From a virus, in the IMG/VR virus record IMGVR_UViG_3300021479_000026, positions 1-48,748 of that record: a stretch of DNA of 48,748 nucleotides; one strand, 5' to 3'. Both the position numbers and the translations under genes were made by a program. Numbering within the stretch: position 1 is the stretch's first letter; each line of letters opens with the position of its first letter. The notes under the pieces are model-generated. The model worked only from the letters and a program-made list of their open reading frames with translations, was not told the DNA's origin and ran no database searches. Below are positions 80 to 47,154 of this stretch, piece by piece.

Positions 80-93
80 TGTAATGGATTACA
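80..93. repeat. Palindrome site 1 (14-bp form)
   Basis: TGTAATGGATTACA, a perfect 14-bp palindrome but for the two central bases. It lies between the convergent terminator and the tRNA-like element. The same site reappears at 48693-48706 in the terminal copy. Confidence 0.95.
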
Positions 94-157
94 GATTTCC
101 CGTCTCCTGCGGGGGGGGGGGGCCTGCGAAGGGAATGCTCGTTTCCGCGAATACTGA

Positions 158-239
158 CCAGCGGCGTAGGAATCGAACCCAAACGAGCACTCCTCGCAAA
201 CTCCTCCTTGCGCCCGGCTCACGACTAGCCGCGCCGCCG
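158..239 (-). tRNA. tRNA-like element, class II shape, probably degenerate
   Basis: Read on the minus strand, an acceptor stem (233-239 with 159-165, seven pairs including one G-T), a short D-arm (GGC/GCC or GGCT/AGCC), a variable-arm-like stem (CGAG/CTCG) and a convincing T-arm (GGG-TTCGATT-CC) fold in tRNA order over 82 nt. Against a working tRNA: the anticodon stem CGCAA/TTGCG closes an 8-base loop without T33, T8 and the D-loop GG are missing, and no CCA is encoded. It may be a decayed tRNA, a mimic, or chance around a T-arm-like core. No amino-acid identity can be assigned. Confidence 0.35.
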
Positions 240-268
240 CCATTCGACCAACCAAATTGACCGTCTAC

Positions 269-469
269 TCATCGGTCCTCCATCGCAGCGAGCTTCGAGA
301 GGGCGGATTGTGTGGAAGGAAGTAGCTTGCTCCACTTCAATCCAGCCTCTAGATTGTGCAACTCCCAAGAGCGCGAAGGATACACTTTCACCAAAAGAGC
401 ATATCGCTTCTGCTTGTCGAGCGTGTCCCACAGTTTGCCGACCTTCTTCTCCGCGTCCGTGGTGCTCAT
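269..469 (-). CDS. Hypothetical protein, 66 aa
   Basis: A small Lys/Leu-rich cytosolic protein with no membrane segment; I do not recognise the family. The ATG overlaps the stop of the upstream gene as ATGA, so the two are translationally coupled. It is the last protein-coding gene of the leftward accessory operon before the tRNA-like element. Function unknown. Confidence 0.7.
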   Translation of the reverse strand: MSTTDAEKKVGKLWDTLDKQKRYALLVKVYPSRSWELHNLEAGLKWSKLLPSTQSALSKLAAMEDR

Positions 470-642
470 GGCTGCTTGCCTCGCTTCTTACGGATACGCT
501 CAATAGTGACGCGAACGTGTTCGCCATCTTTCCATTGCCAGTGTTCAACCAAATATAATCCATCTAAACCCGGCGAGAGCACTCGTGGTTGGCAATGCTT
601 CCATTTTTTCTCAAGTACCGCTTTGAGAACTTCCTTGCTCAC
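466..642 (-). CDS. Hypothetical basic protein, 58 aa
   Basis: I start this gene at GTG 642 rather than further upstream because the GTG overlaps the upstream stop (GTGA) and an AAGGAGG ribosome site lies about 8 bases before it. The product starts VSKEVLKAVL, has aromatic residues mid-protein and a very basic tail (RIRKKRGK), which fits nucleic-acid contact but does not prove it. It couples to the next gene by ATGA. Family unknown. Confidence 0.65.
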   Translation of the reverse strand: MSKEVLKAVLEKKWKHCQPRVLSPGLDGLYLVEHWQWKDGEHVRVTIERIRKKRGKQP

Positions 643-926
643 CCTTGCGCCTCCTTGGCGAGAGCGGCCCCGCGTTTGCATGCGCCGACACTTTGCCAGC
701 AAAATGGGCATATTTGCTTATGCTCCGCCAGCGCCGCTTCAGCTCGCTGCTGGGACATGAACTCCGAGATTCGTTGTTCTGCTAGCGAGTAGGCTTCATC
801 TACGTCAAAGCCAAGGTTATTGCCTTCCAAATCAATTAGCCCGCACTTCTCATTCAATTCATTCACCAAATTAAAACCGAATTCCCGCGCCTCCGCCCGT
901 ACCTCTTCGCTTGGAGGGGTCAACAT
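639..926 (-). CDS. Hypothetical protein with Cys pair, 95 aa
   Basis: An acidic, helical N-terminal half is followed by HKQICPFCWQSVGAC, a CxxC with a nearby His and Cys that could bind a metal. The ATG sits inside the last codons of the NADAR gene upstream, with GAGGTG as ribosome site, so translation is coupled. The family is not recognised. Confidence 0.65.
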   Translation of the reverse strand: MLTPPSEEVRAEAREFGFNLVNELNEKCGLIDLEGNNLGFDVDEAYSLAEQRISEFMSQQRAEAALAEHKQICPFCWQSVGACKRGAALAKEAQG

Positions 927-1354
927 GCACCTCGAATCTCTGAGCGTACTTTCATCAGAATCTTACCTAAATGGTTCTCGCCCCTACCATTACAAACTCC
1001 CCAGAATGTATCGTGCCAATAGTTACCCTCGATGAGTTCTGTGTCTCCCGTTGAAAGCAATTGGCGTTGGAGCATTGGGTCTTGAAATTTCTGCCTCACG
1101 AGGTCGAGCATGACAGCCAGCTTGTCTAAGTCCCAATCGTCTCGAACCGTAACCTTGCGGCCCATCCGTTTTGCATCACCCGCTGTCACGCAGTCTCGCA
1201 CCTTCACCTGCTCTAAAGGAGAACTGGTCTTTGCTGCTTGGTAGGCGTGTTCCACGCTTCGATAGTACTCCGTTCCCCACTTCACTCGGCAAGGCCAAAA
1301 GTTTGAAAGGAAGCGGTAAGCTCCCTGAAACGCAATTATGCGCTCACTTCCCAT
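920..1354 (-). CDS. NADAR domain protein (YbiA/DUF1768-like)
   Basis: A single-domain NADAR protein of 144 aa, the usual length. The family signatures are visible: YRFLSNFWPC near residues 12-21, SVEHAYQAAK near 33-42, and the C-terminal WGVCNGRGENHLGKILMKVR. NADAR proteins act on ADP-ribose derivatives; some members remove ADP-ribose from guanine in DNA and serve as antitoxins to DarT-like toxins. In a phage this suggests protection against NAD- or ADP-ribosylation-based host defence, which is inference. A strong AGGAGGG site precedes the ATG, and the gene sits in an accessory operon with no replication or virion genes, consistent with an accessory role. Confidence 0.88.
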   Translation of the reverse strand: MGSERIIAFQGAYRFLSNFWPCRVKWGTEYYRSVEHAYQAAKTSSPLEQVKVRDCVTAGDAKRMGRKVTVRDDWDLDKLAVMLDLVRQKFQDPMLQRQLLSTGDTELIEGNYWHDTFWGVCNGRGENHLGKILMKVRSEIRGAC

Positions 1355-1457
1355 CTTTCCCTCCTGCCCGCTCGCGCTCCTTGCCCTCTTTTACGCGACT
1401 AAGAGACTTTACAGCAACGCTTAGCCGGTCCAGAGAACGCGCCAAATTCAACATCAT
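1344..1457 (-). CDS. Small basic hypothetical protein, 37 aa
   Basis: The frame opens at ATG 1457 (a second ATG follows immediately) after an AAGGA site, fills the gap between two clear genes, and overlaps the NADAR start by 11 bases. The product is Arg/Lys-rich with an amphipathic first half. It is supported by the ribosome site and tight packing only. Confidence 0.45.
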   Translation of the reverse strand: MMLNLARSLDRLSVAVKSLSRVKEGKERERAGGKDGK

Positions 1458-1464
1458 GAGTCCT

Positions 1465-2404: not shown

Positions 2405-2830
2405 TCACGTAATCTTTAGGGTATAGGATGGGGTAACATCGGTACATTGGTCTATAACGTCTTGCCCCACTCCTGCTGCAAGTAGCTTAGTTGCATTGAT
2501 AGTCTTACGCTGAGTCATAAAGTAGTTCAACACAGCTTCGCCACACCTCGCCTTGGAGATACCGTACTGCCCCACAATGGCTTTGATACGGTCCCGTATG
2601 GGATCAACAATCTTCTCTAGCCGCTTAATCTCTTTTGCTGGGATAGAAAGGGAGCTGACAAGACTCTTCAGAGTCTCCAAGTCTTCAGGCTCGCCAATCA
2701 ACTCCTCTACAGGGTGTAGCACCTCTTCCTCATCCTTGGGCTTAGGGGCTTGTGGGATGAAACTGGGGCCAGTTCCCAATTGGGATTGGGCTATCTTCTG
2801 TGAGAGTGCTGCTGGTAAGGGTTTTGGCAT
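2405..2830 (-). CDS. Hypothetical protein of the replication block, 141 aa
   Basis: A Pro/Glu-rich N-terminal 45 residues precede a helical, charged C-terminal domain with a phrase (INATKLLAAGVGQDVIDQC) that looks like a conserved phage DNA-metabolism protein, though I cannot name the family. GGAGGAGAT precedes the ATG. The gene has its own promoter at 2857-2886, with palindrome site 2 lying between the -10 element and the ribosome site, so it is a good candidate for direct control by whatever binds the palindrome. Confidence 0.75.
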   Translation of the reverse strand: MPKPLPAALSQKIAQSQLGTGPSFIPQAPKPKDEEEVLHPVEELIGEPEDLETLKSLVSSLSIPAKEIKRLEKIVDPIRDRIKAIVGQYGISKARCGEAVLNYFMTQRKTINATKLLAAGVGQDVIDQCTDVTPSYTLKIT

Positions 2831-2840
2831 ATCTCCTCCA

Positions 2841-2853
2841 TGTAATGATTACA
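2841..2853. repeat. Palindrome site 2
   Basis: TGTAATGATTACA lies between the -10 box of the leftward promoter and the ribosome site of the 141-aa gene, spanning the expected transcription start. Confidence 0.95.
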
Positions 2854-2856
2854 TGC

Positions 2857-2886
2857 AAGGTATCACAGTGAGTGAAACCTTGTCAA
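2857..2886 (-). promoter_or_regulatory. Sigma70-type promoter with operator-like palindrome
   Basis: TTGACA (2881-2886) and TGA-TACCTT (-10 at 2857-2862) are separated by 18 bases on the minus strand. The expected start near 2850 falls inside palindrome site 2. The -35 box begins a phrase CTTGACAAGGTTTCAC shared with other promoters of this genome. Confidence 0.75.
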
Positions 2887-2889
2887 GTA

Positions 2890-4254
2890 TTATTTCTGTA
2901 GGTCCCCCCACGACTGAGCTTTAGCCCCAGACGCTACCAGTGGTACTCTCAATGGAGCACAAGTCTCAAACCTGTATTTCACAGCTTCTATCAGCTCATC
3001 GGCTACATCTTCTCTAGCCTCGAAAAGTAGCTCATCGTGCACAGGTAGGAGGGGATGTACTACATCTAACATATTACTCTGCTCTATGTCGTCCCACATA
3101 GCCCCCATGGTCAATTTGAACGTGCCATTAGCTCCACCTTGATATGGGAAGTTACCTACCTCGCGTAGCGCGGCCCCCACAACCCATGAGTGAACACTAC
3201 GCACAGCGGCCACATGCAGTATGCGCCCCCACATATCCCAGCAGAAGCCAAACTGCCTAGCCATCTTATGGTATCGTCTGCGATCCTTAATAATGCCGGG
3301 GTACTTGATATAAAATCCGTTGATGAAGTCTTGACACTTGTCCTCAGTCCACACAGGTCTCCCATTCTCAAATATCGCTGGCATCTGTTCTAGTAGACCC
3401 TTGGCCGATACATCATAGATACAGGCCAGTACACAAGTCTTGGCTGGGTAGTGTGGCCCCTTACCTTGTCTATCTACTCCAGGGTAGTGCCAGCCCTTCT
3501 CATCCTTGTACCTCTTGTCAGGAAGTTTGAATGCGAAGATAGCGAAGTCACTGTAGATGTCCTCACCATTAGTGTAGATACTGATGAGTGTCGGGTCTTC
3601 ACTACTATGGGCTGCCACTCTCATTTCAATCTGCGACTCATCCACAGTGACCATGACCCATCCATCATCTGTTATGAATCCCTTTCGCACCTCATTGCCC
3701 CTATCTGTGCGGGCAGGGATAGCTAGGAGATTGGGAGCCTTGCAGGCGTATCGGCCTGAGGGGACACGGGTACCGGATAGCTGGGGGAACACTCGCCATG
3801 TCCCCAGCTTGGTGCGAACAGCCAATTTGGGGATGGGTCTGACATAGGTTCCCAGCAATTTCGATAGCTCTTTGTGGTCAAGGACCAAAGGTACAACTGG
3901 GTGGTCATGCTGAATGGCTGTTAGGACTTCATCCTCAACGCTCTCGCGGTCTCCACTCTGCGTCAGTTTGTAGCGGGCTTGCTTTAATCCTAGCCGCTTG
4001 AATAGAAGGTCACTCACTTGGTCCCCGGAAGCCAAGTTCACATAGTGTCCAGTGAGGGTGTGGACCTGCTCGGTCAACTTATCCATGTCCTCTATGAGAG
4101 ACTTCTCTAGTCTGGTGAAGTGGTCAACATCTATCTGTAGGCCAGTCTTGGCCATACTGAGAATCATGGGAGTCGCCATCGAATCAATCTTTTGGACGTT
4201 TTTAATTGATGGCCCACTGCCCAATAATCTTGCTCCTCCGTATAGTCTAGCCAT
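2890..4254 (-). CDS. Family A DNA polymerase, polymerase domain only
   Basis: Replicative DNA polymerase of 454 aa comprising only the palm/fingers/thumb part. Visible motifs are a template-binding region with PNLLAIPAR (174-182), motif A VDESQIEMR (204-212; catalytic D205, with Glu where Tyr is usual), motif B with K272, L276 and Y280 (IYD instead of IYG, and His where Arg is expected), and motif C VHDE (405-408). The residue equivalent to E. coli Phe762 is Leu; that variant in viral polymerases has been linked with temperate or slower-replicating phages. The 3'-5' exonuclease is on the upstream gene, overlapping by 8 bases, so the two products probably form one replication unit. Confidence 0.93.
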   Translation of the reverse strand: MARLYGGARLLGSGPSIKNVQKIDSMATPMILSMAKTGLQIDVDHFTRLEKSLIEDMDKLTEQVHTLTGHYVNLASGDQVSDLLFKRLGLKQARYKLTQSGDRESVEDEVLTAIQHDHPVVPLVLDHKELSKLLGTYVRPIPKLAVRTKLGTWRVFPQLSGTRVPSGRYACKAPNLLAIPARTDRGNEVRKGFITDDGWVMVTVDESQIEMRVAAHSSEDPTLISIYTNGEDIYSDFAIFAFKLPDKRYKDEKGWHYPGVDRQGKGPHYPAKTCVLACIYDVSAKGLLEQMPAIFENGRPVWTEDKCQDFINGFYIKYPGIIKDRRRYHKMARQFGFCWDMWGRILHVAAVRSVHSWVVGAALREVGNFPYQGGANGTFKLTMGAMWDDIEQSNMLDVVHPLLPVHDELLFEAREDVADELIEAVKYRFETCAPLRVPLVASGAKAQSWGDLQK

Positions 4255-5605
4255 CCCAATGCTCCGAAAGCCTATGCCTAACCTGTCTAGTCATCCCCTG
4301 TAATACAGGCCACAGCCTCAAGGTCGAGTCGGCATCGCGGCAGGCGTATGTGATGACCTTGTCCATCGGCACATGCTGTATGCTCTTACCCGGCCACTCG
4401 CCACACACCATCTCAATCTGTTTATGGTCATCCTCCCAGTTATCCCATGCCTGAAACACATCCTTGTCATTGTGCTTCTGATATTCAGTGAGGAACCTCT
4501 TGAGCTTGGTGCCCATACTCTGTGGCTTATAGAGCTTCCAATTCCCTTCAGGGTCCCGTACTGTCTGCTCCTCTGGCTTAGGCCACTCATGGTTGACAGC
4601 CTCTCGCAGATAGCTCAAGCATAGAGGGGTAGAGTAGGGGGTCACTAGGTCATCGAAGTCCTGCATCTGCATCCCTAGCAGTCTGTAAGCCAGAGCCTTG
4701 AGTCCTTGTGGTAAGTTGCCCAAGTGGTAGGCTCTCACCATCGTATCAATGATGCGCTTATGGGGAAAGACTAACCCCATCTTCTCTACCACTTGGGAAT
4801 CGAATAGCCAGTTGTGTAACAGTATGGGTCCTTCCCACCTGTTGAGTAAACACTGAAATATCTCTATGGCATCCTTATCCTCAGCCCTTATCAATCGGCC
4901 TGTGCCGGGGTGCATTGAGTAACTCAAACAGAATGGCTCACGTTTTCGGGTGACTTCCGTATCACAGGCCAGTGGGCGAGTGTAATCATTACATTCGAGG
5001 TAGTCTGTCAAAAGGTCATCTGCCCCTATTTCCTGATAGTCTGTACCTAGAGTGTCAACAGGCAGCTTGAGTTTGCCCTTGAGATACTTCCCCAACCTAA
5101 CCCAATCGTTGCGGATCATGAGCATCTTCTTTGGCTCATGGAGTCCACCGGCTGGATGGTACATGGGGAACACTGTGCCCCAGCTAGTCTCAAGAGGGAT
5201 GCCATGTTGTAGCTCAAGGTTAATGTCAGGGTCTAGCGCATAGCAGGCTAGTACTCCCATAGGTACTATAACTCTGCCATTTGTCTCTCCAAGTCTCTCA
5301 AGGCAGCCGTGAGAGCTGCATGATAGGAGAAGGGATTTATCGGTATCTCTATGTATATCAAGTCGGCCTTGTGGTCTATCAGGTAAACAGCCGATGGCGT
5401 TATCAAAACGAACGGACTCCCGCCTGAGTCCGGCGAGTGGAAGATAATGCCGGTTGACTTCTTCCCCCGTCTTCCCCACAAAAGGTTGACCCAGCCTATC
5501 TTCATCTTTACCAGGAGCCTCACCAATAAATAGAACACGACTGTCCTCCAGCCCCGATGGGGGCACCAAATTGTGCTTTGCAGGGCATAGGGTGCAACGG
5601 TCCAT
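4247..5605 (-). CDS. Uracil-DNA glycosylase / 3'-5' exonuclease fusion
   Basis: A two-domain protein of 452 aa. Residues 1-180 are a family 4-like uracil-DNA glycosylase: CxxC at 4-7, GEAPGKDED at 28-36, HPAG at 150-153. Residues 210-435 are a DnaQ-like proofreading exonuclease: DTE at 215-217 (Exo I), HNWLFD at 264-269 (Exo II), YACRD at 420-424 (Exo III). The interdomain linker carries the palindrome-encoded peptide CNDYT (205-209). The gene lies just upstream of the polymerase domain and overlaps it, so the phage splits a UDG-exo-pol arrangement into two chains. The ATG takes its A from palindrome site 4 and has no close ribosome site. Confidence 0.9.
   Translation of the reverse strand: MDRCTLCPAKHNLVPPSGLEDSRVLFIGEAPGKDEDRLGQPFVGKTGEEVNRHYLPLAGLRRESVRFDNAIGCLPDRPQGRLDIHRDTDKSLLLSCSSHGCLERLGETNGRVIVPMGVLACYALDPDINLELQHGIPLETSWGTVFPMYHPAGGLHEPKKMLMIRNDWVRLGKYLKGKLKLPVDTLGTDYQEIGADDLLTDYLECNDYTRPLACDTEVTRKREPFCLSYSMHPGTGRLIRAEDKDAIEIFQCLLNRWEGPILLHNWLFDSQVVEKMGLVFPHKRIIDTMVRAYHLGNLPQGLKALAYRLLGMQMQDFDDLVTPYSTPLCLSYLREAVNHEWPKPEEQTVRDPEGNWKLYKPQSMGTKLKRFLTEYQKHNDKDVFQAWDNWEDDHKQIEMVCGEWPGKSIQHVPMDKVITYACRDADSTLRLWPVLQGMTRQVRHRLSEHWDG
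4981..4993. repeat. Palindrome site 3, intragenic
   Basis: TGTAATCATTACA inside the UDG-exonuclease gene. On the coding strand it reads TGT AAT GAT TAC A and gives CNDYT exactly in the linker between the two domains. Confidence 0.95.
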
Positions 5606-5617
5606 GTAATGATTACA
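5605..5617. repeat. Palindrome site 4, stop-to-start spacer
   Basis: TGTAATGATTACA fills the whole gap between the TGA of the ERCC4 nuclease gene and the ATG of the UDG-exonuclease gene; its last base on the minus strand is the A of that ATG. Confidence 0.95.
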
Positions 5618-6352
5618 TCACTCCGTTTCGTGAATCTGCTTTACAATAGATCGGGCTAACTTAGCTCCCACCCCATCAATCTTAATCCAATCCCCCTCAT
5701 CTGAGGATGCCAGCTCATAGGGAGTACGGAATAGCTTCTCTGCTGCCATCCCATGCTTCACACCAATGCCATCCAACTCCGATGCCCACCTTCTCACCAG
5801 TGATGGTCTACCATTGAGTGATGGCATGTTGAGTTTCTGTGTTTCGAGTAAACTGGTATGGTCTTCCCACCGCTTCTGAAAGTAGTGATAACATTCAAGG
5901 ATATTGAACGCAGTGTGCTCCATGTCCCGTGTAATGATTACATTTATCCCAGCTATCTGTAGCGTCAACAGGAACCGAAAGAGCTTGGAATAACGGGTCA
6001 TCTGTGTGCGGTACCTATATGGACGCCACTCAAGGGTACGGATACACTCCATGAGGTAGCCTGTAACGCTATCGGGCTTCCACACCCCTTCAATCATCAC
6101 AATGTTATAGGCATACATGGCCTTCATACCGGGGAGCTGGTGGGCGGCAAATCTAGAATCGTCTATGCAGTTCAAAATATCAGATAAGGACTTGCGCTCA
6201 ATCCCTACACAAATCCTACCCTGTGGCCCATTCCCCTCAAAGCAGGCATCCCCAAACTCTAAGGTAACCTTCTCAATCTTCACATTCATTGAGATTCGCT
6301 GAAGGTACGGGATTAGTTCCTTGGAGCCTGTACGTGAGTCGATGATTATCAT
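5618..6352 (-). CDS. ERCC4-type (XPF/Mus81-like) structure-specific nuclease
   Basis: A 244-aa protein with an ERCC4 nuclease domain followed by helix-hairpin-helix DNA-binding repeats. The nuclease signature is visible as GD (34-35), the metal-binding IERKSLSD (51-58) and the nearby DDSRFAAHQ. The tail (about 190-240) has two HhH-like elements (DGIGVKHGMAAEKL; IDGVGAKLARSIVKQI). Family members cut branched DNA; here it would resolve replication or recombination intermediates with the neighbouring Sak4-like ATPase and helicase. Palindrome site 5 is translated as VIIT at 138-141. It is coupled by ATGA to the 69-aa gene upstream. Confidence 0.87.
   Translation of the reverse strand: MIIIDSRTGSKELIPYLQRISMNVKIEKVTLEFGDACFEGNGPQGRICVGIERKSLSDILNCIDDSRFAAHQLPGMKAMYAYNIVMIEGVWKPDSVTGYLMECIRTLEWRPYRYRTQMTRYSKLFRFLLTLQIAGINVIITRDMEHTAFNILECYHYFQKRWEDHTSLLETQKLNMPSLNGRPSLVRRWASELDGIGVKHGMAAEKLFRTPYELASSDEGDWIKIDGVGAKLARSIVKQIHETE
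5930..5942. repeat. Palindrome site 5, intragenic
   Basis: TGTAATGATTACA inside the ERCC4 nuclease gene, translated as VIIT between the nuclease core and the HhH tail. Confidence 0.95.
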
Positions 6353-6558
6353 GTTGGAATCCCTCTATTCGGTTGACATATAACACAAGACTTGTAGTGG
6401 TAAAGTGAGGCCCCTAGCAGCTTCCTCTCCCTAGTCTCCTCGGCATAGTGCAGTGCATGACCCTTACCCATAAGGTCCTTATACACCTCATAGAGGGCAC
6501 TAACTTGCTGCTCACCGTCAACGTGGACATACCCAGTGGATAGGAGCCTATCGACCAT
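6349..6558 (-). CDS. Hypothetical protein, 69 aa
   Basis: A small soluble protein with SCVICQPNR near its end. It overlaps the ATPase gene upstream by 11 bases and the nuclease gene downstream by 4 (ATGA), so it is translated as part of the recombination block. Family unknown. Confidence 0.65.
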   Translation of the reverse strand: MVDRLLSTGYVHVDGEQQVSALYEVYKDLMGKGHALHYAEETRERKLLGASLYHYKSCVICQPNRGIPT

Positions 6559-7342
6559 AGCCCCACTCCTCCAAAGAGATGTGCGGGTAAATTGTCTGAA
6601 CTAAGCTAGAGAAGTTACAGTCTGCCCCCCATAGTTCCAATCCCTGCAAGGTGGTATCACTCTTACACCGTAGAATCCTCACCCCGAACTGTCCCGTCTC
6701 CTGATTGTGTAGATGCCTTAGCTGTAGTTGGTAGAGATATTCTTGGTCTGCAAACCCCTGCCTCACGTCTTTGCCAGTCCTTATCTGGACTTCCTTACCC
6801 GTGTTATCCAGCTTGGAGTCATACCCATCTTTGAGCTTGTTAGTGGATATGACAACCTTCCCTGAGTCAAATGCCCTAGCAATCATAGCCCGCCTAGCAG
6901 CATTGACAGCCGTATAACGCATGGGGGGAATCTGTTCTAATCGGCCAAACTCAGCTAACCGTTGTAGCTCCCATGAGTCTGAGTCCCCATCAAGTACCAC
7001 AGTACGGGCATCTGGGTTAGCCAATGCCTTCTTATACTCCTCATAGAAGGCTCGCCAATACTCAAGGTACACAGGCTGTGCGACTTGAGTGGCAAGGGGA
7101 ATGGGAATAACCTTGAAAGCATAGTCATCCCGGCGAGTCTTAGGCGGGTTAGGGTTATCAAAGATACCATCGAACCCGCGATCTATGCAGATGACAATAC
7201 CAGGACCGGGAGCAGATAGGGCAAACTCTGTCTTACCTGTGTTAGACCTACCCTCTGTGCCTATAAGGATGTGGCGCTTCTTGCTCCTCACTTGGTTGAT
7301 AGGGAGAAAGCCATCCCGTGCGAAACTTGCAGGTAGAATCAT
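6548..7342 (-). CDS. AAA_24 / Sak4-like RecA-fold ATPase
   Basis: A 264-aa single-domain P-loop ATPase: Walker A GRSNTGKT (31-38) and a Walker B-like strand TVVLDGDSDSW (about 113-123), then a sensor-type stretch VVISTNKLKDGYD. Length and motif order fit the AAA_24 (Sak4) group, phage proteins that promote single-strand annealing or strand exchange, usually with an SSB-like partner. The neighbouring RecB-like nuclease and the unassigned 312-aa protein make a plausible recombination module. Confidence 0.83.
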   Translation of the reverse strand: MILPASFARDGFLPINQVRSKKRHILIGTEGRSNTGKTEFALSAPGPGIVICIDRGFDGIFDNPNPPKTRRDDYAFKVIPIPLATQVAQPVYLEYWRAFYEEYKKALANPDARTVVLDGDSDSWELQRLAEFGRLEQIPPMRYTAVNAARRAMIARAFDSGKVVISTNKLKDGYDSKLDNTGKEVQIRTGKDVRQGFADQEYLYQLQLRHLHNQETGQFGVRILRCKSDTTLQGLELWGADCNFSSLVQTIYPHISLEEWGYGR

Positions 7343-7611
7343 TGGACCTTATCCGTGGTAGCCTTATGTACTAGGTAGTCCAAGAGAGCAGCAAACCCCT
7401 CGAAGTACTTTATCTCGGCACGGATGACAGCCGCTCTAACTTCTGAACTAGGAGCACCAGCCATACACGGGCCACAATTATGCTCGCATCTTACGAACGC
7501 CTCAACTAAAGACTTGAGTCTCTTCCTTTGTTCCAGGGTAAATTCAGCAGTAGGGGGGCTATCGTGATATCTATCAAATGTCTCCCCACTGATTAAATCT
7601 GTGAGATACAT
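7339..7611 (-). CDS. Hypothetical protein, 90 aa
   Basis: I start at ATG 7611 because GGGAGGGG sits directly upstream; a longer frame to 7653 runs further into the nuclease gene. The product is helical with a CEHNCGPC cluster near residue 42 that could bind a metal. It overlaps both neighbours, by 4 bases downstream and 19 upstream. Function unknown. Confidence 0.65.
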   Translation of the reverse strand: MYLTDLISGETFDRYHDSPPTAEFTLEQRKRLKSLVEAFVRCEHNCGPCMAGAPSSEVRAAVIRAEIKYFEGFAALLDYLVHKATTDKVQ

Positions 7612-8204
7612 CGCCCCTCCCGATAATCCCTGTAGTCTCGCAGCATGGCCCAATTATCATCTATCTCATGCTGTGTAAACTCTAATGTCCACTCTTTCAC
7701 CATCGGACGTATGGGCATCTTGTAGTCACCACAAAGAAAGAGGACGTGTATCTTGGCGTAGGTGGTATTCAGCCCCTTGCAATAGGCTTTCACTTGGGTT
7801 AGCCATAACCATTGGCCCCTCATGTCACCCACAGTGTTTATGCTCTTATAGGTGGCTTTCACCTCATGGACCCGTGTAATCATTACACCTCTCTCTACCC
7901 CATCCGGCTGCATGTAGATGCCATCAACACATATCTCCCCCGGATGTTTGAGTATCCCTTTCCTCTTGAGGAACACTCCAAGATAGTATTCCTCCCAACT
8001 TAACCCAATACATATCCGAAGGATAGCTACTGGGTCTGTTATCATCCTCACATCAGACATGCTAGGTTCCTCTATCCCATCTGACTTGAGGACCCCAGTG
8101 CTGAGGGCTATGTCCCGGATGATACCACTGACATGGACCCCTTTACCTCTGGGTATAGAAGGGGGAGGCACGAGTAGCTCAACGTCTTGACAGACAGCTT
8201 CCAT
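7593..8204 (-). CDS. PD-(D/E)XK nuclease, RecB/Cas4-like
   Basis: A 203-aa protein with the core of a PD-(D/E)XK nuclease: Glu residues near 71-72, D94 in ICVDGIYM and EVK at 114-116 in HEVKATYKS. Such phage nucleases process DNA ends for recombination or degrade host DNA. The palindrome-encoded peptide VMIT (107-110) lies in the beta-hairpin between the catalytic Asp and the ExK strand. I see no four-Cys Fe-S cluster of Cas4 type. It lies between the ATPase and the 312-aa protein. Confidence 0.82.
   Translation of the reverse strand: MEAVCQDVELLVPPPSIPRGKGVHVSGIIRDIALSTGVLKSDGIEEPSMSDVRMITDPVAILRICIGLSWEEYYLGVFLKRKGILKHPGEICVDGIYMQPDGVERGVMITRVHEVKATYKSINTVGDMRGQWLWLTQVKAYCKGLNTTYAKIHVLFLCGDYKMPIRPMVKEWTLEFTQHEIDDNWAMLRDYRDYREGRCISQI
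7875..7887. repeat. Palindrome site 6, intragenic
   Basis: TGTAATCATTACA inside the PD-(D/E)XK nuclease gene, read as VMIT between the catalytic D and ExK motifs. Confidence 0.95.
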
Positions 8205-8224
8205 TCCTCCCCCTTCCTTTCCTC

Positions 8225-9163
8225 TTACGCTGGGACTACTGTAGGTCCTGAAACCTTGTAGCCCAGCGGGTTGAGAACTGAGTTGAGTGTGTCATCCGAA
8301 CTGAAGAAAGTGTTGATAACCTTCTGGGCTACTTCCTGCCCATACGTGGTACTCACGGACTTGAAAGTGCTGGTGCGAAGGATGAGCTTCCCTACCCCCT
8401 TAGCATACTGGGGTAGCTCCAACACAGAAGAGATACCTGTGATGGCAGCAGTCTCAGTGTCCTCGGACTGAGCGGCAGGGGCAGTCGAGGCTGGTGCATT
8501 CGCAGTACGCGACACTGCGGGGCGAGTGGCCGCAGCGTGGGCAGCGGTCGGAACCTTCCCGTTGGGCTTTGGGGCTTGTTCCTGAATCCCACCTGTCCCT
8601 TCCCACGGCTTGCCGTCATCCTTAATCTCAGTGACAACAGCAATGGTCTTGGGACCCTGAGTCTCCCCAGCTTCTCCGGTCTTCGACATGAATCCCTTAC
8701 GTTCCTCTGGCTCTGGGACATTAGCCATATGAACGTGGATGCCCTCAAGCACCGACAAGTCATCGCTGAGGATACCCTGTGGGAGTCCACTGTCGTATAG
8801 GGACTTGATGAGGAAGGCCCAGTTGGTTGAGGCATTAGGTGGAGTACCGGGTCCACCAGGAACAGCAACCAACCCTTTGCCCGTCTCTGGGTTAGGCTGC
8901 CATGATTGGTGGGCACTAGTCCCCAGCGAGTAGTGCTGCTCTCTGGGTTCCCCACCGCCAAGTGGAACTAGGGTTATCTTGACTGCGAGCTTGGCCGGAC
9001 CAACCTTCTCACCAGTCTGCTTGGTGGGTTGAAACATCTCAACAGTAAGGTCCGTCCAGCAATAATCGCCTTCAGGTAATACGCCGCCACTGCTGTACGC
9101 GGTCATATCACCAAAGTTAAACCCCGATGAAGGGGGTGATGCTGTCTTTCTGATTGGTGTTGC
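8225..9163 (-). CDS. Hypothetical replication-block protein, possible ssDNA binder, 312 aa
   Basis: The start at ATG 9163 follows AGAGGAGA; an upstream TTG is in frame but unlikely. Residues 1-160 look like a beta-rich domain (YCWTDLTVEMFQ, KLAVKITLVPLGGG). Residues 180-235 are a Pro/Ala/Thr-rich low-complexity linker, and the last 75 residues form a helical domain. A beta-domain plus disordered linker, placed between a helicase and a recombinase, is the layout of a single-strand binding partner, but no SSB motif is plain. The role is inferred from context only. Confidence 0.7.
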   Translation of the reverse strand, partial: ATPIRKTASPPSSGFNFGDMTAYSSGGVLPEGDYCWTDLTVEMFQPTKQTGEKVGPAKLAVKITLVPLGGGEPREQHYSLGTSAHQSWQPNPETGKGLVAVPGGPGTPPNASTNWAFLIKSLYDSGLPQGILSDDLSVLEGIHVHMANVPEPEERKGFMSKTGEAGETQGPKTIAVVTEIKDDGKPWEGTGGIQEQAPKPNGKVPTAAHAAATRPAVSRTANAPASTAPAAQSEDTETAAITGISSVLELPQYAKGVGKLILRTSTFKSVSTTYGQEVAQKVINTFFSSDDTLNSVLNPLGYKVSGPTVVPA

Positions 9164-9206
9164 CATTGTTTCTCCTCTGATTTGAATTTTACTACTATGA
9201 ACCAAG

Positions 9207-9219
9207 TGTAATCATTACA
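9207..9219. repeat. Palindrome site 7, supplies helicase stop
   Basis: TGTAATCATTACA; on the coding strand it provides the TAA stop of the helicase gene (CTG TAA) and then lies 43 bases ahead of the next start codon. Confidence 0.95.
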
Positions 9220-10777: not shown

Positions 10778-10784
10778 GGTAAGG

Positions 10785-10813
10785 AGGTTACACTCCCGGT
10801 GAAACCGTGTCAA
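10785..10813 (-). promoter_or_regulatory. Sigma70-like promoter of the helicase gene
   Basis: TTGACA (10808-10813), 17 bases, then GTG-TAACCT (-10 at 10785-10790), within the 3' end of the HTH gene. The start codon at 10777 is 7 bases past the -10 box, so the transcript would be essentially leaderless. The -10 match is weak; the -35 phrase GCTTGACACGGTTTCAC matches other promoters here. Confidence 0.5.
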
Positions 10814-13825: not shown

Positions 13826-13838
13826 TGTAATCATTACA
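13826..13838. repeat. Palindrome site 9, extended
   Basis: TGTAATCATTACA within the 19-bp perfect palindrome AAGTGTAATCATTACACTT, between the endolysin stop and the holin start. Confidence 0.95.
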
Positions 13839-40638: not shown

Positions 40639-40651
40639 TGTAATCATTACA
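40639..40651. repeat. Palindrome site 24
   Basis: TGTAATCATTACA between the stop of the 797-aa spike gene (40653) and the 658-aa spike gene. It marks the right edge of the palindrome-free cassette. Confidence 0.95.
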
Positions 40652-40652: not shown

Positions 40653-43046
40653 TTAGGAGATTGTGCATGATGACCCTCGATAGATTGTCACCAAGTCGCC
40701 AATAGTTGGTGCTACAAGTTGGAGTGAAACTACTGTCCCACTAACTGAAGCACCCTCAATCCTAGCCCAAATATGAAAGGGCATCTTAGTCCCCGTGCCG
40801 CCAAGAGTCCAGTTCGGTGCAATCTGAAACGTCGTTGTTATCGAGGCTGTGTCCGTCACAGCTCCATAAGCCGAGGCCGTTGCCGCAGTGCCCATCGAAT
40901 AGTTAGCCGTAATATTCACAGCCCCATTCGTCGCTGTCAGGAGGTTCCACTGATTCGCTGTCGCCCCGGTTGCTTGCCCTACAACGCCATCACAGGTCAA
41001 TGTATAGGATTGTGTAGCAAGTGGAAGTGTGAGGGTTAGCGGCACACCACCACCAGACCCGATAATCTGGGCGGTCGTGCAGGAAACTACCGTACCACCT
41101 GTCCCGCAAGTCCAGTCAGCAGTCAGAGCCACGCTATTGCCTATGGCTTTCACTATCTGACCACCAGCGTAGTAGACAGGAGCAAATCCGGCAGCATTAG
41201 AATCGTACAGCTTAATGAGCGTATTGGTATCGGTGATACTATTCAGGGCATCATTCAGGATTGTAGCAGAACCATTGCCCACTATATTTTGTGCCGTCAC
41301 GCGGTTAGTTGCTACATTCGCAACGTTGATGAGCGTGGGGACAGTAGCATTGCCGTAGAGATTCTTAAGTGTCACGCCTACCGTTTGCGTGGTAGGCCCA
41401 ATACTTGCTCCAATAGTTCCATGCTCGAAATGGATATTCTCTAAGCTGCCGCCCGTCACACCATCAAGGACAAGCTGATTGCCGATAGTAGAGGCATCGT
41501 TGGTGTTGAATGTGGCATCCTGTATACCACGGAATGACGGCACGTTGTGGATGTAAGCCCCTATAGTTCCACCACCACCTCCAGAGGGTAGGATATCCCA
41601 GCCACGCCCGCTGGAATTTTGAGCGCCAGAGCCTTCATACCACAGCGAGTATTTGGTGCAATTCTGCACAATAACATTAAAGAAGCCAGAAAGTTCTTGC
41701 CCGTTCTGGTTTTCTCCTGCAATACTATTAGACCCTCCATTGCAGTTTATGGTTACGCCATCAACTGTCGCAGAGCTTATGGTGCTTCCATTGCCAATTT
41801 GAATAATAGGTGTGCTGGACGGAAATCCACTATTTTGCTGGATTTGCGTAACTCCAGAAAACCCGTAAAGATGTGCCCCTGACGAAGAGAGAATAATTTG
41901 TCCACTAACTATAAGATTTATTGATGCTAGTAGGACTATCTGCCCCCCAGAGATAGTAAACCCGCCCCCACAAACTTGTGTGCCCCTAAAACCTGTTGCG
42001 TTAATGATTCCAGCACCTGTAGCAAGCCCCGTGGCAATCTTCGCACAAGCATCAGCACCCACCTGTTGGTCAGCACAGATAACACCATTAATGGAGGCAC
42101 AAGTTAGTGTCGAGGCGAAAACTGTTCCCGATAGTATGGTTGGCCCATTTACGTTTAATCCATTATTAAACGTATTTGATGTAGTGAATACATTACCCAA
42201 CCCCAGTTGAGCCACACCTGTTAGAGAGTTTAATCCCACACCTATAACCTTCATTACTGGCTTGGTAGTGGGGGAGTAGAATTGGACATAATATATGCCA
42301 CTCGCGGCAAATACATTCCAATTCCCCAATTGGTCACTAGCTATCGGGTTAGTGGACGGAACACTCAGCGTGGGGTCTTGGAATATAGAGGATAGCCCAC
42401 CACAGGTAGTGGTACCATTCCCTTCCTGTAAGACTGTCCCATTGCTAGAGGCAATGCCATTAGTGTGGTTTAGTTGGAAGGTTATGGCTGTAGGGGATAC
42501 AGTCAAGATGGTGAAACCCCCAGTAATGGTCCCATTGGTTAAGGTTCCAGCATTAAAGAATATATCTGACCCGGTAAACCCGGCCACTAGTATAGTCATC
42601 CCCGGCACAAACCCGGCAGTCACAGGGTTACTAACCATCGTCAGTGTGGCGAGGTTATTGGATACACTCGCTGCGGTAGTGGATAGGGGCTGGCAGACGG
42701 CAATGCTCTGATTGGCGAGAGGAATTCCTTGGCGGTTAACAACGGGGGAACTATTGGAACCCAAATTACCTTGGGCACGTAAATTCGCGGGTAGGAAGAG
42801 TGTAATGATTACAAGTAGGGAGGCTAGATATTTGGCCTTTTGCCTAGCGGGGGACGCATGGTCTAGTTGGCACCCCACACAATACTTAGCCACTGACCTA
42901 CCTACCGCCATCTTGCCTGTGTATAACCTAACCTTACATATCAGGCAGCGCTTAGGCTCAGGGTCAGCGGGTATTCCAGGGCGGCGATAATGGACTAGTA
43001 GGCCCTGATCTCGTTGCTCTTGTGTGATGGGTATGGGGACTAGCAT
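40653..43046 (-). CDS. Spike-like protein with zinc ribbon and membrane segment, 797 aa
   Basis: From ATG 43046 the protein opens with a cytosolic-looking zinc ribbon (CLIC 34-37, CVGC 56-59), then a hydrophobic segment ending like a signal peptide (LASLLVIITLFLPANLRAQG, about 74-93), then a long beta-helix region with IGNGSTISSATVDGVTINC and further Asn/Gly/Thr/Val-rich turns, and a C-terminal beta domain. Palindrome site 25 encodes VIIT in the hydrophobic segment. The upstream frame extends to 43085, but 43046 avoids overlap with the 49-aa gene. There is no ribosome site; the palindrome is 2 bases upstream. The role is probably receptor binding or surface degradation. Confidence 0.7.
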   Translation of the reverse strand: MLVPIPITQEQRDQGLLVHYRRPGIPADPEPKRCLICKVRLYTGKMAVGRSVAKYCVGCQLDHASPARQKAKYLASLLVIITLFLPANLRAQGNLGSNSSPVVNRQGIPLANQSIAVCQPLSTTAASVSNNLATLTMVSNPVTAGFVPGMTILVAGFTGSDIFFNAGTLTNGTITGGFTILTVSPTAITFQLNHTNGIASSNGTVLQEGNGTTTCGGLSSIFQDPTLSVPSTNPIASDQLGNWNVFAASGIYYVQFYSPTTKPVMKVIGVGLNSLTGVAQLGLGNVFTTSNTFNNGLNVNGPTILSGTVFASTLTCASINGVICADQQVGADACAKIATGLATGAGIINATGFRGTQVCGGGFTISGGQIVLLASINLIVSGQIILSSSGAHLYGFSGVTQIQQNSGFPSSTPIIQIGNGSTISSATVDGVTINCNGGSNSIAGENQNGQELSGFFNVIVQNCTKYSLWYEGSGAQNSSGRGWDILPSGGGGGTIGAYIHNVPSFRGIQDATFNTNDASTIGNQLVLDGVTGGSLENIHFEHGTIGASIGPTTQTVGVTLKNLYGNATVPTLINVANVATNRVTAQNIVGNGSATILNDALNSITDTNTLIKLYDSNAAGFAPVYYAGGQIVKAIGNSVALTADWTCGTGGTVVSCTTAQIIGSGGGVPLTLTLPLATQSYTLTCDGVVGQATGATANQWNLLTATNGAVNITANYSMGTAATASAYGAVTDTASITTTFQIAPNWTLGGTGTKMPFHIWARIEGASVSGTVVSLQLVAPTIGDLVTIYRGSSCTIS
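42801..42813. repeat. Palindrome site 25, intragenic
   Basis: TGTAATGATTACA inside the spike gene, read as VIIT (79-82) in its membrane or signal segment. Confidence 0.95.
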
Positions 43047-43048: not shown

Positions 43049-43061
43049 TGTAATCATTACA
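43049..43061. repeat. Palindrome site 26, supplies stop of the 49-aa gene
   Basis: TGTAATCATTACA; GTG TAA on the coding strand ends the 49-aa gene, and the spike ATG follows 2 bases after the site. Confidence 0.95.
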
Positions 43062-43206
43062 CCGTGTAAAAATTACACGGTCCATTTTTGGATTGAATTT
43101 TTTGGAGCGCCACTATCAGACCGGGGGCACGTCTCTTCTCAGCGGGGAGGTGGCCTACGTATACCCCCACCATACCCACTATCAGTGCCGGTACTACCAT
43201 GACCAT
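43057..43206 (-). CDS. Small membrane protein, 49 aa
   Basis: Starts at ATG 43206 (alternative GTG 43212). One hydrophobic helix (MVMVVPALIVGMVGVYVG) is followed by a basic segment and ends in CNFYTV, the translation of a degenerate palindrome and the first base of site 26, whose TAA is the stop. It is probably a single-pass membrane peptide at the head of the spike operon. Confidence 0.5.
   Translation of the reverse strand: MVMVVPALIVGMVGVYVGHLPAEKRRAPGLIVALQKIQSKNGPCNFYTV
43065..43077. repeat. Palindrome site 27, degenerate
   Basis: TGTAAAAATTACA, a centre-altered copy only 3 bases from site 26, translated as CNFYT in place of CNDYT. It is flanked by an inverted CCG/CGG pair, making a 19-bp hairpin-like palindrome. 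Confidence 0.8.
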
Positions 43207-43227: not shown

Positions 43228-43241
43228 TGTAATCCATTACA
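43228..43241. repeat. Palindrome site 28 (14-bp form)
   Basis: TGTAATCCATTACA about 22 bases upstream of the 49-aa gene. A possible 21-codon frame (43223-43288, GGAG upstream) runs through it. Confidence 0.95.
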
Positions 43242-43671: not shown

Positions 43672-43981
43672 ACGCTGTCACCCTAAAACTGACTTGTCAA
43701 CCCCCCAATATGGATTACAGTAAAATAGGCCAAGCATGAGATAGGGCAAGGATTATAGGAGGAAAATAAATGTAAGTACTAGAGTAAAATGGTACTTGAC
43801 AAGGTTTAGGGAATATGGGAAGGTTTCACTAGCGGAGAAACCCGCGAGGGGGATATATGAGTGTTTCGCACATGACACACTGTAATCATTACAGTGTGCC
43901 ACATGGGAAATACTCCCATAAAGCCCAAAACAGTAGGGCGAACGTTACAACCCGGATAGACGGGTAGAATGGATACAAGTA
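43672..43981. promoter_or_regulatory. Divergent control region between leftward and rightward genes
   Basis: A 310-base gap with no gene. It holds a half-site TGGATTACA (43711-43719), a start-stop minimal frame AUGUAA (43770-43775) behind an AGGAGGAAAA ribosome site, a -35-like CTTGACAAGGTTT (43795-43807) without a good -10 box, the extended palindrome site 29 (43876-43898, 23 bp perfect) and a 6-bp hairpin (43903-43919). No convincing -10 element is seen in either direction, so activation may need a regulator. Confidence 0.6.
43881..43893. repeat. Palindrome site 29, longest symmetric copy
   Basis: TGTAATCATTACA inside a perfect 23-bp palindrome (43876-43898) in the divergent control region, about 90 bases upstream of the DUF932 gene. 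Confidence 0.97.
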
Positions 43982-45990: not shown

Positions 45991-46361
45991 CTAACGCTCT
46001 AAGTAGAGATTGGTGGCCGGGGCGAAGGACTCACCACACCGGCACTACCCGCAACATTGTGATGGGTGAGATGTACGATTCGAGACACTACACATTGCCT
46101 AGTGGCCGACAAGTCACGGTCAAGACGATTTGCGAGATGGGTGGCGCATTCATCGGAAGAGTGCTAACCCGATATTGGGTTGGCGTAGACTGGGGATTTG
46201 AGCCTTCCTACGCTGTATTCTCCCCCATTGATCTATCCCAATTCCACAGACATAATGTGCTGCCCCGTGCTCTGTACCCAGGTAGACTTCCACGTATGGT
46301 GATGTGGAGTGCTCGTGTCAAACTCTTCTTTTTGCGTTTATGGCTGAGGCACAAACTGTAA
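45987..46361 (+). CDS. Hypothetical protein, 124 aa
   Basis: A soluble protein with Trp/Arg/Tyr-rich composition (RYWVGVDWGFEPSYAVFSP) and a basic, hydrophobic C-terminus (SARVKLFFLRLWLRHKL) that may contact membrane or partner. Its TAA is supplied by palindrome site 30, and the next gene's ATG overlaps it. Family unknown. Confidence 0.65.
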   Translation: MTNALSRDWWPGRRTHHTGTTRNIVMGEMYDSRHYTLPSGRQVTVKTICEMGGAFIGRVLTRYWVGVDWGFEPSYAVFSPIDLSQFHRHNVLPRALYPGRLPRMVMWSARVKLFFLRLWLRHKL

Positions 46362-46369
46362 TGATTACA
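46357..46369. repeat. Palindrome site 30, stop and start of adjoining genes
   Basis: TGTAATGATTACA; CTG TAA ends the 124-aa gene and the overlapping ATG ATT ACA starts the zinc-ribbon gene, as at terminase. Confidence 0.97.
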
Positions 46370-46531
46370 TGGAGACGATGCCTAGGATGTGGTTCGGTGA
46401 GCCTTCCCCTTAACAGGCACGATCTCTGTCATCATTGCACCAGTTTCTACAAGGCTGTGCTGGTACGTAGGGCCGAGCTATTAGGTACACTCAGGAATCA
46501 GTTTGCGTGGCGAAGGTTGAGGGTAGAGTGA
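46361..46531 (+). CDS. Zinc-ribbon protein starting in a palindrome, 56 aa
   Basis: Starts MIT from palindrome site 30, with TAATG coupling and no separate ribosome site. Two CxxC pairs (CLGC about 7-10 and CHHC about 24-27) make a zinc ribbon; the tail is basic and helical. It could bind nucleic acid or RNA polymerase, as small phage zinc ribbons do; this is inference. Confidence 0.68.
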   Translation: MITWRRCLGCGSVSLPLNRHDLCHHCTSFYKAVLVRRAELLGTLRNQFAWRRLRVE

Positions 46532-46537
46532 GGGTGT

Positions 46538-46717
46538 ATGCGAATCGAGACGAATTACTGGCGTAAGCCCATACCGAATAATAAGTACGATTGGTCTGCG
46601 ATTGACTCAGATACCTATGATGGCGCACCAGACTCTCCCAGACGCGCAAGAGCACAGGGGTTTGGTTCTACAGAAGAAGAGGCCATTCAGGACTTGAGGG
46701 AACAGTTGGAGGAGTAA
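46538..46717 (+). CDS. Small acidic protein, 59 aa
   Basis: ATG 46538 follows AGGG. The N-terminus is Asn/Pro/Tyr/Trp-rich and the C-terminus is an acidic helix (TEEEAIQDLREQLEE). The stop is followed directly by the next ATG, whose ribosome site GGAGGAG lies in this gene's last codons. Family unknown. Confidence 0.6.
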   Translation: MRIETNYWRKPIPNNKYDWSAIDSDTYDGAPDSPRRARAQGFGSTEEEAIQDLREQLEE

Positions 46718-46855
46718 ATGACTACAATTATTGCAATCTTAGTAATCTGCATATGGAGCTTTAGAGTGCTCCGATCTGAGCGGCCTAAGAAGGCAGAGCC
46801 AGGACTTTTGTATAGCACTATCAGATGGTTTGGGCATGCATGGAATGGGAAGTAG
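46718..46855 (+). CDS. Small membrane protein, 45 aa
   Basis: One N-terminal membrane helix (TTIIAILVICIWSF) and a basic cytosolic-looking tail. GGAGGAG lies 7 bases upstream of ATG 46718. Probably a single-pass membrane peptide made with the neighbouring early proteins. Confidence 0.6.
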   Translation: MTTIIAILVICIWSFRVLRSERPKKAEPGLLYSTIRWFGHAWNGK

Positions 46856-46858
46856 CAT

Positions 46859-47041
46859 ATGGAACTATCAGAGCTGACAGACAAAGCCATTGACTATATC
46901 CTGTCTCACCTTGAGGCTGAGACTAGGTTGACTCAGTGGGAGAAGGGGTTTGTCGAGTCTATCTCAGACCAATGGACTAGCAGACGTAGCCTGACGGATA
47001 ACCAGAAACTGACTCTTGGTAAGGTGTGGGACAAGTATTGA
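46859..47041 (+). CDS. Small helical protein, 60 aa
   Basis: Acidic, helical protein (ELTDKAIDYILSHLEAE, LTDNQKLTLGKVWDKY) resembling small phage proteins that pair helices, but no family is named. GGGAAG precedes the ATG. It ends one base before the next small frame. Confidence 0.65.
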   Translation: MELSELTDKAIDYILSHLEAETRLTQWEKGFVESISDQWTSRRSLTDNQKLTLGKVWDKY

Positions 47042-47146
47042 ATGCCCTTATTTTGCCAGTCCTTGAGCCATTACAGGGTGATTACAGTGCTCTATTTTGG
47101 GCGCATCTTTGGGTATGTCCCTGTTCTGGCGTGCCCTTTCGTGTAA
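47042..47146 (+). CDS. Possible 34-aa peptide ending at a palindrome
   Basis: ATG 47042 follows the upstream TGA directly, and the frame closes with GTG TAA in palindrome site 31, as in six other genes. The peptide is hydrophobic and Cys-containing. A competing frame (47026-47220, 64 aa) reads through the palindrome as VIIT and is also hydrophobic; the sequence alone does not decide. Confidence 0.35.
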   Translation: MPLFCQSLSHYRVITVLYFGRIFGYVPVLACPFV

Positions 47147-47154
47147 TCATTACA
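47142..47154. repeat. Palindrome site 31
   Basis: TGTAATCATTACA, 43 bases upstream of the ParB promoter's -35 box; supplies the stop of the 34-aa frame. Confidence 0.95.

Follow-up and report, generated by a model that had tools for sequence, protein, structure and literature searches.

What reads a short palindrome that recurs throughout a phage genome, inside genes as well as between them? The question is raised by the IMG/VR virus record IMGVR_UViG_3300021479_000026, a record of 48,748 bases that we analyzed over its whole length (the window) and that carries 30 distinct copies of a 13- or 14-bp palindrome. We favor, with moderate confidence, the explanation that these palindromes are putative dispersed loading sites, comparable to parS, Noc-binding sites (NBS), or O_B, for an orphan ParB-family protein encoded at positions 47353-48624. 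The predicted system is most likely a ParA-less, Noc/KorB-like clamp-loading array.

Exact 13-mers of the form TGTAATNATTACA (e.g., TGTAATSATTACA) occur 25 times in the window against 0.01 expected from dinucleotide shuffles, and exact 14-mers, TGTAATNNATTACA, occur six times against 0.00 expected. The center base of the 13-mers is C or G, and the 14-mers consist of TGTAAT and ATTACA around CC or GG, without exception in the window. The first and last 135 bases (1-135 and 48614-48748), which contain a long G run, agree at 134 positions; the record is therefore probably a whole genome, either circularly assembled or terminally redundant. Because the copies at 80-93 and 48693-48706 both lie in this overlap and are one site, the number of distinct sites is 30. 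A degenerate copy with one mismatch is found at 43065-43077. The preliminary description of this DNA had reported thirty intact copies and one degenerate copy in both transcription directions, at about one per 1.6 kb, where a fixed 13-mer would be expected less than once by chance. All of this holds, with a mean spacing of 1,623 bases, the copy at 48693 lying beyond the range it had covered. Relative to the gene calls, nine of the 31 exact sites are wholly within genes, six overlap a gene end, and 16 fall between genes. The symmetry extends into the flanks, to about AAGTGTAATSATTACACTT (214 sites from 11 records). The sites and the genes discussed below are as follows; the sites have no assigned strand and are exact matches unless marked, and G numbers denote records compared with the window.

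80..93, 14-bp site TGTAATGGATTACA, duplicate of 48693..48706 through the end overlap
2841..2853, 13-bp site with center G, conserved in G003 and G007; the start of the gene that begins at 2830 follows after 10 nt
4981..4993, 13-bp site within the exonuclease half of DNA polymerase, conserved in G003 and G007
5605..5617, 13-bp site between the stop and start of neighboring genes, not conserved in G003 or G007
5930..5942, 13-bp site within the nuclease gene; the aligned G058 site is TGTAAACTTTACA
7875..7887, 13-bp site within gene 7593-8204; the aligned G048 site is TGTAACCGTTACA
9207..9219, 13-bp site at the helicase stop, directly upstream of the SSB-like open reading frame (ORF), conserved in G003, not in G007
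10682..10694, 13-bp site TGTAATGATTACA within the helicase gene; the aligned G048 site is TGTAACCGTTACA
13826..13838, 13-bp site, start codon 20 nt downstream
14377..14390, 14-bp site with center CC, intergenic
16524..16536, 13-bp site within gene 15657-17126
18411..18423, 13-bp site at a gene junction
21806..21818, 13-bp site, 16 nt upstream of the start of 18424-21789
22299..22311, 13-bp site at a gene junction
24035..24048, 14-bp site with center GG at a gene junction; G007 has a site here, G003 has none
25211..25223, 13-bp site at a gene junction
27245..27258, 14-bp site with center CC across a stop codon
28648..28660, 13-bp site across a stop codon
31079..31091, 13-bp site within ORF 30968-31156
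31835..31847, 13-bp site, start codon 19 nt downstream
34390..34402, 13-bp site within ORF 34229-34564
36154..36166, 13-bp site including the called ATG of the large terminase
37227..37239, 13-bp site, start codon 19 nt downstream
40639..40651, 13-bp site, start codon 18 nt downstream
42801..42813, 13-bp site within ORF 40653-43085
43049..43061, 13-bp site near the start of ORF 40653-43085
43065..43077, degenerate copy TGTAAAAATTACA with one mismatch, 3 bp from the preceding site
43228..43241, 14-bp site with center CC, intergenic
43881..43893, 13-bp site, 88 nt upstream of the DUF932 gene
46357..46369, 13-bp site across the stop of ORF 45987-46361
47142..47154, 13-bp site about 200 bp upstream of parB
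48693..48706, 14-bp site with center GG downstream of parB, the same site as 80..93
47353..48624, plus strand, orphan ParB/Noc/KorB-type protein of 423 aa, the proposed reader, with a ParB N-domain, a helix-turn-helix (HTH) domain, a long coiled coil, and a C-terminal helical domain
10788..11150, minus strand, XRE-like HTH protein of 120 aa, rival reader or possible partner, next to the helicase in most of the relatives in which this region is present
2405..10813, minus strand, replication module common to array-bearing phages: a small protein, a two-ORF DNA polymerase, a nuclease, a P-loop protein, 7593-8204, an SSB-like protein, and a helicase (Pfam Helicase_C_2)

The 14-bp form, which stands at 80, 14377, 24035, 27245, 43228, and 48693 in the window, has a single further copy (GG) among the 17 other records compared, in G007, and its center is never another dinucleotide. 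At 43049-43085, an exact site is followed after 3 bases by the degenerate copy, which lies within a longer perfect palindrome (ACCGTGTAAAAATTACACGGT), a double site that differs from all the others.

The sites take up what small space is left from a stop codon to the ribosome-binding region that follows, and many also lie within coding sequence. At a tolerance of one mismatch, their density is about tenfold higher in short gaps than in genes (3.14 versus 0.31 per kb; 142 versus 213 sites), as counted over genes confirmed by diverged homologs in other records, which leaves 297 of the 652 sites unclassified for want of a cross-confirmed gene or gap covering them. For sites in co-directional gaps (121 sites in 35 records), the median distance is 16 bases to the start codon that follows and 3 bases to the stop codon that precedes, which amends the earlier remark that the sites keep no fixed distance to promoters. 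The sites are also spread more evenly than random placement would produce: the coefficient of variation of the gaps in the window is 0.58 against 0.96 in simulation (P 0.001), and spacing was more even than random at P < 0.05 in seven of eight records (the exception, G012, has P 0.098), with mean gaps from 1.5 to 2.7 kb. Even spacing together with sites inside genes suits coverage of a genome better than control of a few promoters.

The sites are under selection, also inside genes, because seven of eight in-gene positions are shared between the window and G003, compared with 6.1% of other 13-base windows that are identical in coding DNA of 72% identity. Sharing was complete in three other comparisons (window and G007, 5/5; window and G044, 6/6; G003 and G007, 7/7), and in nine pairs at 54-57% identity ranged from 0/3 to 3/4 over backgrounds of 0.2-0.75%. 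When window sites were sought at the corresponding places of G003 (no more than 45 bases away, or in the same gap), eight of eight in-gene sites and eight of 10 gap sites were recovered, 13 of the 31 window sites being unmappable. Near relatives by replication genes carry the same array with its positions kept.

Terminase relatives at 85-90% identity hold 33, 11, and 10 exact 13-mers in 49.5, 24.0, and 14.8 kb, and two at 34% identity hold none. A scan for the extended site matched at least 118 stretches, and 38 records picked from 80 listed loci were recounted: 24 had exactly one copy, as expected of a chance match to the scanned pattern, and further dense records among the matches listed included 36 copies in 63.2 kb, 25 in 55.1 kb, and 23 in 66.9 kb. 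By blastp, several distant records (G006, G008, G009, G012, and G024) share with the window only the replication module (the two-ORF DNA polymerase, nuclease, P-loop protein, SSB-like protein, and helicase), the XRE protein in most, and ParB in the larger ones; the terminase and capsid genes of the window are not shared. We take the P-loop protein to be Sak4-like by its sequence, the SSB-like protein to be such as a guess from its place, and the helicase to be of the DinG type. The DNA polymerase is divided between two ORFs (2890-5605), one with the polymerase part and one with the exonuclease part, which match separate regions of a single PHROG. No such array was seen in the examined loci of helicase relatives with 36% identity or less. 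Records of 45 kb or more have 15-53 sites each at up to one mismatch, leaving aside 14-mers found only as exact matches; the analysis covered 20,000 of the 22,588 bases of G051 and 56,000 of the 56,270 of G052. In INPHARED, no near relative was found for an 11.6-kb stretch of the window and none for the ParB protein (tblastn); the polymerase matched 1,925 phage records there, all below 60% identity, about 29% for the best among the matches listed.

Searching through helicase and ParB relatives revealed arrays with other inner letters, namely TGTAAC, TGTAAA, TGTATA, YGTAGT, and TGTATT. In each of 35 records one GTAxx half-site is the commonest, with small counts in short records: GTAAT in most, GTAAC in G046, G048, and G049 (17, 6, and 9), GTATA in G047 (27), GTAGT in G052 (19), GTATT in G057 and G056 (13 and 4), and GTAAA in G058 (41). 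The outer GTA is constant across the families counted. The center base is C or G in most lineages and mainly A or T in G059, G047, G057, and G056; the flip from C/G to A/T is seen at L302-L304 (G059), L305-L307 (G047), and L294-L297 (G057). The letters of the array have thus switched as a whole within genomes. Of 223 in-gene sites of the GTAAT group mapped to genomes with other letters, 32 fall within three bases of a site in the letters of that genome (up to one mismatch; null 0.27%), but these reuse few loci across many genome pairs and are not 32 independent events, which lessens their weight for the explanation proposed here. Half-sites that are mixed at position 6 combine T and C in G020 (e.g., TGTAATCGTTACA; L150/L151) and G050 (L321), and T and A in G054 (e.g., TGTAATCTTTACA; L311/L312); such arrays look like intermediates between specificities. 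G010 (L153) also has an array with mixed half-sites at position 6. As the letters switch in concert within whole genomes, the reader is most simply regarded as phage-encoded and co-evolving with the sites.

These changes bear directly on the suggestion that a host regulator, of the Fur/PerR/Zur type or another family, reads the sites, which is the least probable of the explanations that we weighed: the letters resemble TCGTAATNATTACGA, given in the preliminary description as a Zur box, but they switch between related phages at kept positions, and in a 1.4-Mb bin, which need not be that of the host, all 19 exact copies are on one phage contig.

Among the phage proteins, the one encoded at 47353-48624 has a ParB/Noc/KorB fold, with a ParB N-terminal (Srx-like) domain followed by an HTH domain. 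Profile matches over both domains were obtained to Noc (7ng0, E 6.5e-11), Spo0J (1vz0, 4.5e-10), and KorB (8qa8, 7.6e-6), and PHROGs likewise assigns it as a ParB-like partition protein. The predicted structure (mean predicted local distance difference test score 84) matches ParB, Noc, and KorB, with the KorB co-complex 8qa9 among the best fold matches (Z 12.8, 193 residues aligned, root mean square deviation 4.8). The positions GxxR and (E)N-x-x-R, which we take to be the nucleotide-binding motifs of the ParB family, are kept: over 17 sequences, G71, R74, and N111 are nearly invariant and R114 is invariant. A recognition helix S-N-[SA]-x-x-N is present in nearly all of them, with N159 and N163 invariant and F161 as the first of the two x positions. 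Pfam HTH_ParB matched three of eight relatives of the window protein.

ParB also travels with the array. It is present in 18 of the 35 array records, among them all 11 of 45 kb or more (G000, G003, G006, G008, G009, G024, G047, G052, G057, G058, and G059), whereas none was found in the nine helicase relatives that lack an array (G061-G069). These nine include fragments, and seven of them, checked whole for TGTAATSATTACA, contain no copy. A ParB at 62% identity is encoded on a contig of a metagenome-assembled genome (MAG), apparently the same contig that holds all the exact copies of the 1.4-Mb bin. In 15 of the 17 records measured, parB is preceded by a site at a distance of 28-274 bp; G020, one of the 18 ParB records, had no measurable upstream site.

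ParB is the best candidate, and its HTH columns track the letters of the sites best. In a common set of 14 records with seven module proteins, ParB HTH columns account for seven of the 25 best trackers of the inner letters (96 of 2,414 columns, hypergeometric P 3.4e-5), compared with one of 25 for XRE HTH columns (P 0.43); over 16 records with XRE left out, the ParB share is eight of 25 (P 4.7e-6). These P values overstate the effect, as columns share ancestry and are not independent. In the F161 column of the ParB-bearing records, inner AT, AC, or mixed T/C goes with F, M, or L, inner TA with Y, and inner TT and GT with W; the two records in which A5 is followed by A at position 6 have H. The top ParB column is V186 (F161 and V186 being 158 and 183 in the alternative numbering of the letter-tracking ranking), which in our own alignment stands beside Caulobacter G201. 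The arginine of Noc that is the counterpart of G201 reads inner position 6 (PMC7383237). Near-duplicate records were dropped, G056 and G013 before the Mantel test and also G049 before the column rankings.

Beyond the ancestry shared by columns, several results weigh against ParB as the reader. Tracking was scored as per-column adjusted mutual information, a measure chosen after the result of a partial Mantel test had been seen and so weaker evidence than a planned test would be. The Mantel test compared motif distance with protein windows of eight columns, and the eight-residue ParB recognition helix gave r 0.13 (permutation P 0.21). ParB was thus not singled out; its best windows (r 0.70) lie in the C-terminal domain, and the recognition-helix windows of the XRE protein scored higher, at 0.32-0.45, the best XRE window, GKRQPSLK, reaching 0.60. 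In the common-set ranking, the top two columns belong to the polymerase and a RecA-like protein, and XRE column R57, 14th in the first letter ranking, is seventh. For the class of the center base (S or W), the best trackers are SSB and exonuclease columns, with no clear ParB signal. None of the 17 array records without a ParB match is longer than 32.3 kb, and these may be fragments. Seven phage records without such an array (L175-L181) encode distant ParB relatives that match over part of the protein at 22-35% identity, so that a ParB-like gene as such does not imply an array. With regard to the fold, coiled-coil-only chains reach Z 12.0 in the same structure comparison, Z alone thus being weak, and a single-sequence Pfam scan of the window protein gave no ParB_N or HTH_ParB match. 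The preliminary description had likened the palindromes to Noc/ParB-type dispersed sites with ParB as a candidate reader; of its ideas this is the best supported, and we hold it to be moderately probable.

Its strongest competitor is the XRE-like protein, also proposed there, which could be an immunity-type repressor with the palindromes as operators or stoperators that stop transcription at gene junctions, as in cluster A mycobacteriophages, the ParB protein being a separate matter. We regard this as unlikely, although it stays a real rival to ParB: of the 11 array-bearing records of at least 45 kb, 10 contain the XRE gene, its windows outscore the ParB helix as described above, and a site lies no more than 51 bp upstream of its start in 12 of 20 records, as autoregulation predicts. 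For these upstream distances, the thresholds of 274 and 51 bp were set after the values had been seen, and the null applied the mean spacing of the window to all records. The crowding of sites in short intergenic gaps is likewise as reported for L5 (PMC9283540). However, the XRE recognition helix varies widely among genomes with identical TGTAAT (SISHLS, SKSYLS, DQSWLS, YPNHLS, and SLSYIS), and the letter tracking of its HTH columns given above speaks against it. XRE relatives occur in the array-less G066-G068 and weakly in G063, and in G058, where 44 sites were counted at up to one mismatch, the only XRE match is weak and lies away from the helicase (E 0.007). The sites, moreover, are symmetric and unoriented, and a tyrosine integrase was found in none of 15 phage records.

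Somewhat less likely still is a joint reading by ParB and XRE on the model of KorB and KorA of RK2, in which ParB would load and slide and XRE would hold the clamp at promoters for silencing at a distance. Both genes travel with the array, the co-complex 8qa9 is among the best fold matches of ParB, and KorB with KorA is described as a sliding clamp plus a lock (PMC11790492). The kinship of XRE with KorA is only assumed in this scheme, and at least 213 of the 652 sites are wholly in genes, where promoters are not expected. A separate multi-copy operator for XRE was not seen among the palindromes listed; neither was a second dispersed perfect palindrome among the top ones listed in array-bearing records.

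That the sites are themselves promoters, or a by-product of start and stop codon usage, is highly improbable. A GTAAT-type site with a C or G center carries ATG on one strand as well as stop codons, sites crowd stop/start junctions and sometimes hold the start or stop codon, and TGTAAT resembles a -10 box. Against this, 213 of the 355 classified sites are wholly in genes, in-gene sites are conserved far above background, lineages with GTAAC, GTAGT, and GTATA keep the array, and no flanking -35-like signal was apparent by eye in 214 sites aligned by center base rather than by gene direction. The GerE protein, another reader suggested earlier, was set aside; its ORF (37242-37493) has no homolog in 17 other records, several of them fragments (blastp, 1e-4).

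If the ParB protein is the reader, its HTH dimer would bind the 6-1-6 palindrome, with the invariant N159 and N163 reading the constant outer GTA and the variable F161 and V186 region reading the variable inner letters. With CTP, the dimer is predicted to close into a clamp and slide off the site, as ParB and KorB do, and loading every 1.5-2.7 kb would keep the whole phage genome covered. The purpose, the least certain part of the scheme, may be Noc/KorB-like: organization of the genome, its protection or shielding, or genome-wide transcriptional silencing, with the XRE protein as a possible partner. ParA-driven partition is an unlikely role because a ParA of the AAA_31 type (PF13614), the only ParA family searched, was found in none of the 15 phage records (control genomes 14/14; the 15 include four records of 29-35 kb that are possibly fragments) and a tyrosine integrase was likewise absent from all 15. 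Clustering of sites at one or a few loci near parAB, as in ParABS systems, was not observed either; the sites span whole records.

Dispersed-site proteins of the ParB type (KorB and Noc) and phage-wide 13-mers (L5 stoperators) are known already. In the IncP plasmid RK2, several short palindromic O_B operators, about 12 sites, are spread over a replicon of some 60 kb, and O_B is a 13-bp palindrome with a G/C center, TTTAGCSGCTAAA. The phage system is similar in its dispersed-palindrome architecture, in having a ParB-family protein (here the inferred reader) with a partly similar fold, and in a presumed global role beyond one centromere; the XRE protein that co-occurs with the array may act as a KorA-like lock. 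It differs in belonging to a phage rather than a plasmid, in its 15-53 sites per record against about 12, and in the many sites within genes. The C-terminal part, with its long coiled coil and helical domain, also looks different from that of KorB, and the Pfam scan of the window ParB and its relatives turned up no KorB domain. O_B has also been described as a 16-bp sequence (PMC11790492).

Features in common with Noc of Bacillus are a ParA-less ParB-type protein and the dispersal of sites over the replicon. Noc-binding sites are dispersed over the replicon at lower density than the sites of the phage array. The phage sites differ from them in their letters, their odd-length 6-1-6 palindrome, their far higher density, and their location in a phage genome. 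The specificity of the ParB/Noc HTH can be reprogrammed at a few residues (PMC7383237).

Phage-borne ParB is known from the ParABS systems of phage-plasmids, N15/phiKO2 and mycobacteriophages. N15 has a handful of dispersed centromere-like repeats. Compared with these, the phages described here show the lack of AAA_31-type ParA noted above and about 30 sites rather than a few. Orphan phage proteins with the ParB-CTPase fold (PMC12704722) are of the same class, ParB-like, ParA-less, and phage-associated; the part of that survey available does not describe a genome-wide array of matching sites. Cluster A phages of the L5 type have more than twenty 13-mer sites across the genome, in promoters and short intergenic spaces, and these are asymmetric and oriented with transcription, the repressor binding as a monomer (PMC9283540). 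The likeness to L5 stoperators drawn in the preliminary description stands for the genome-wide spread and the preference for junctions (short intergenic intervals, though many array sites are intragenic) and fails for symmetry: the sites here are palindromes in which only the center base breaks the symmetry, and both centers occur among same-direction genes of the window.

A ParA-less ParB with a phage-wide, even, partly intragenic array rewritten between lineages was not found in titles and abstract openings of the open-licence literature. We tentatively suggest, as a possibility that we would put at rather less than even, that uncultured phages coat their genomes with a CTP-gated ParB-type clamp, and that array and clamp change specificity together, providing a lineage-private tag by which a phage could mark, organize, silence, or shield its own DNA against others. 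The clamp would be loaded from the evenly spaced palindromes, many of which lie in coding sequence, and specificity would change across dozens of sites together. Many phages carry ParB-like genes, mostly without an established function; the orphan ParB found here comes with readable putative target sites, so that its function is directly testable. The lineages further offer a natural series of at least six specificities (GTAAT, GTAAC, GTAAA, GTATA, GTAGT, and GTATT) for studying the joint change of a reader and dozens of sites.

Four array-bearing records of 16.6-23.9 kb (G011, G010, G029, and G021; L152, L153, L158, and L160) encode none of the seven module proteins searched and may be fragments, or phages with the array and different replication genes. 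A phage contig of the array group, JAGWWT010000009.1 (L325), is binned in a MAG of Patescibacteria; this may be a bin contaminant or a hint at the host.

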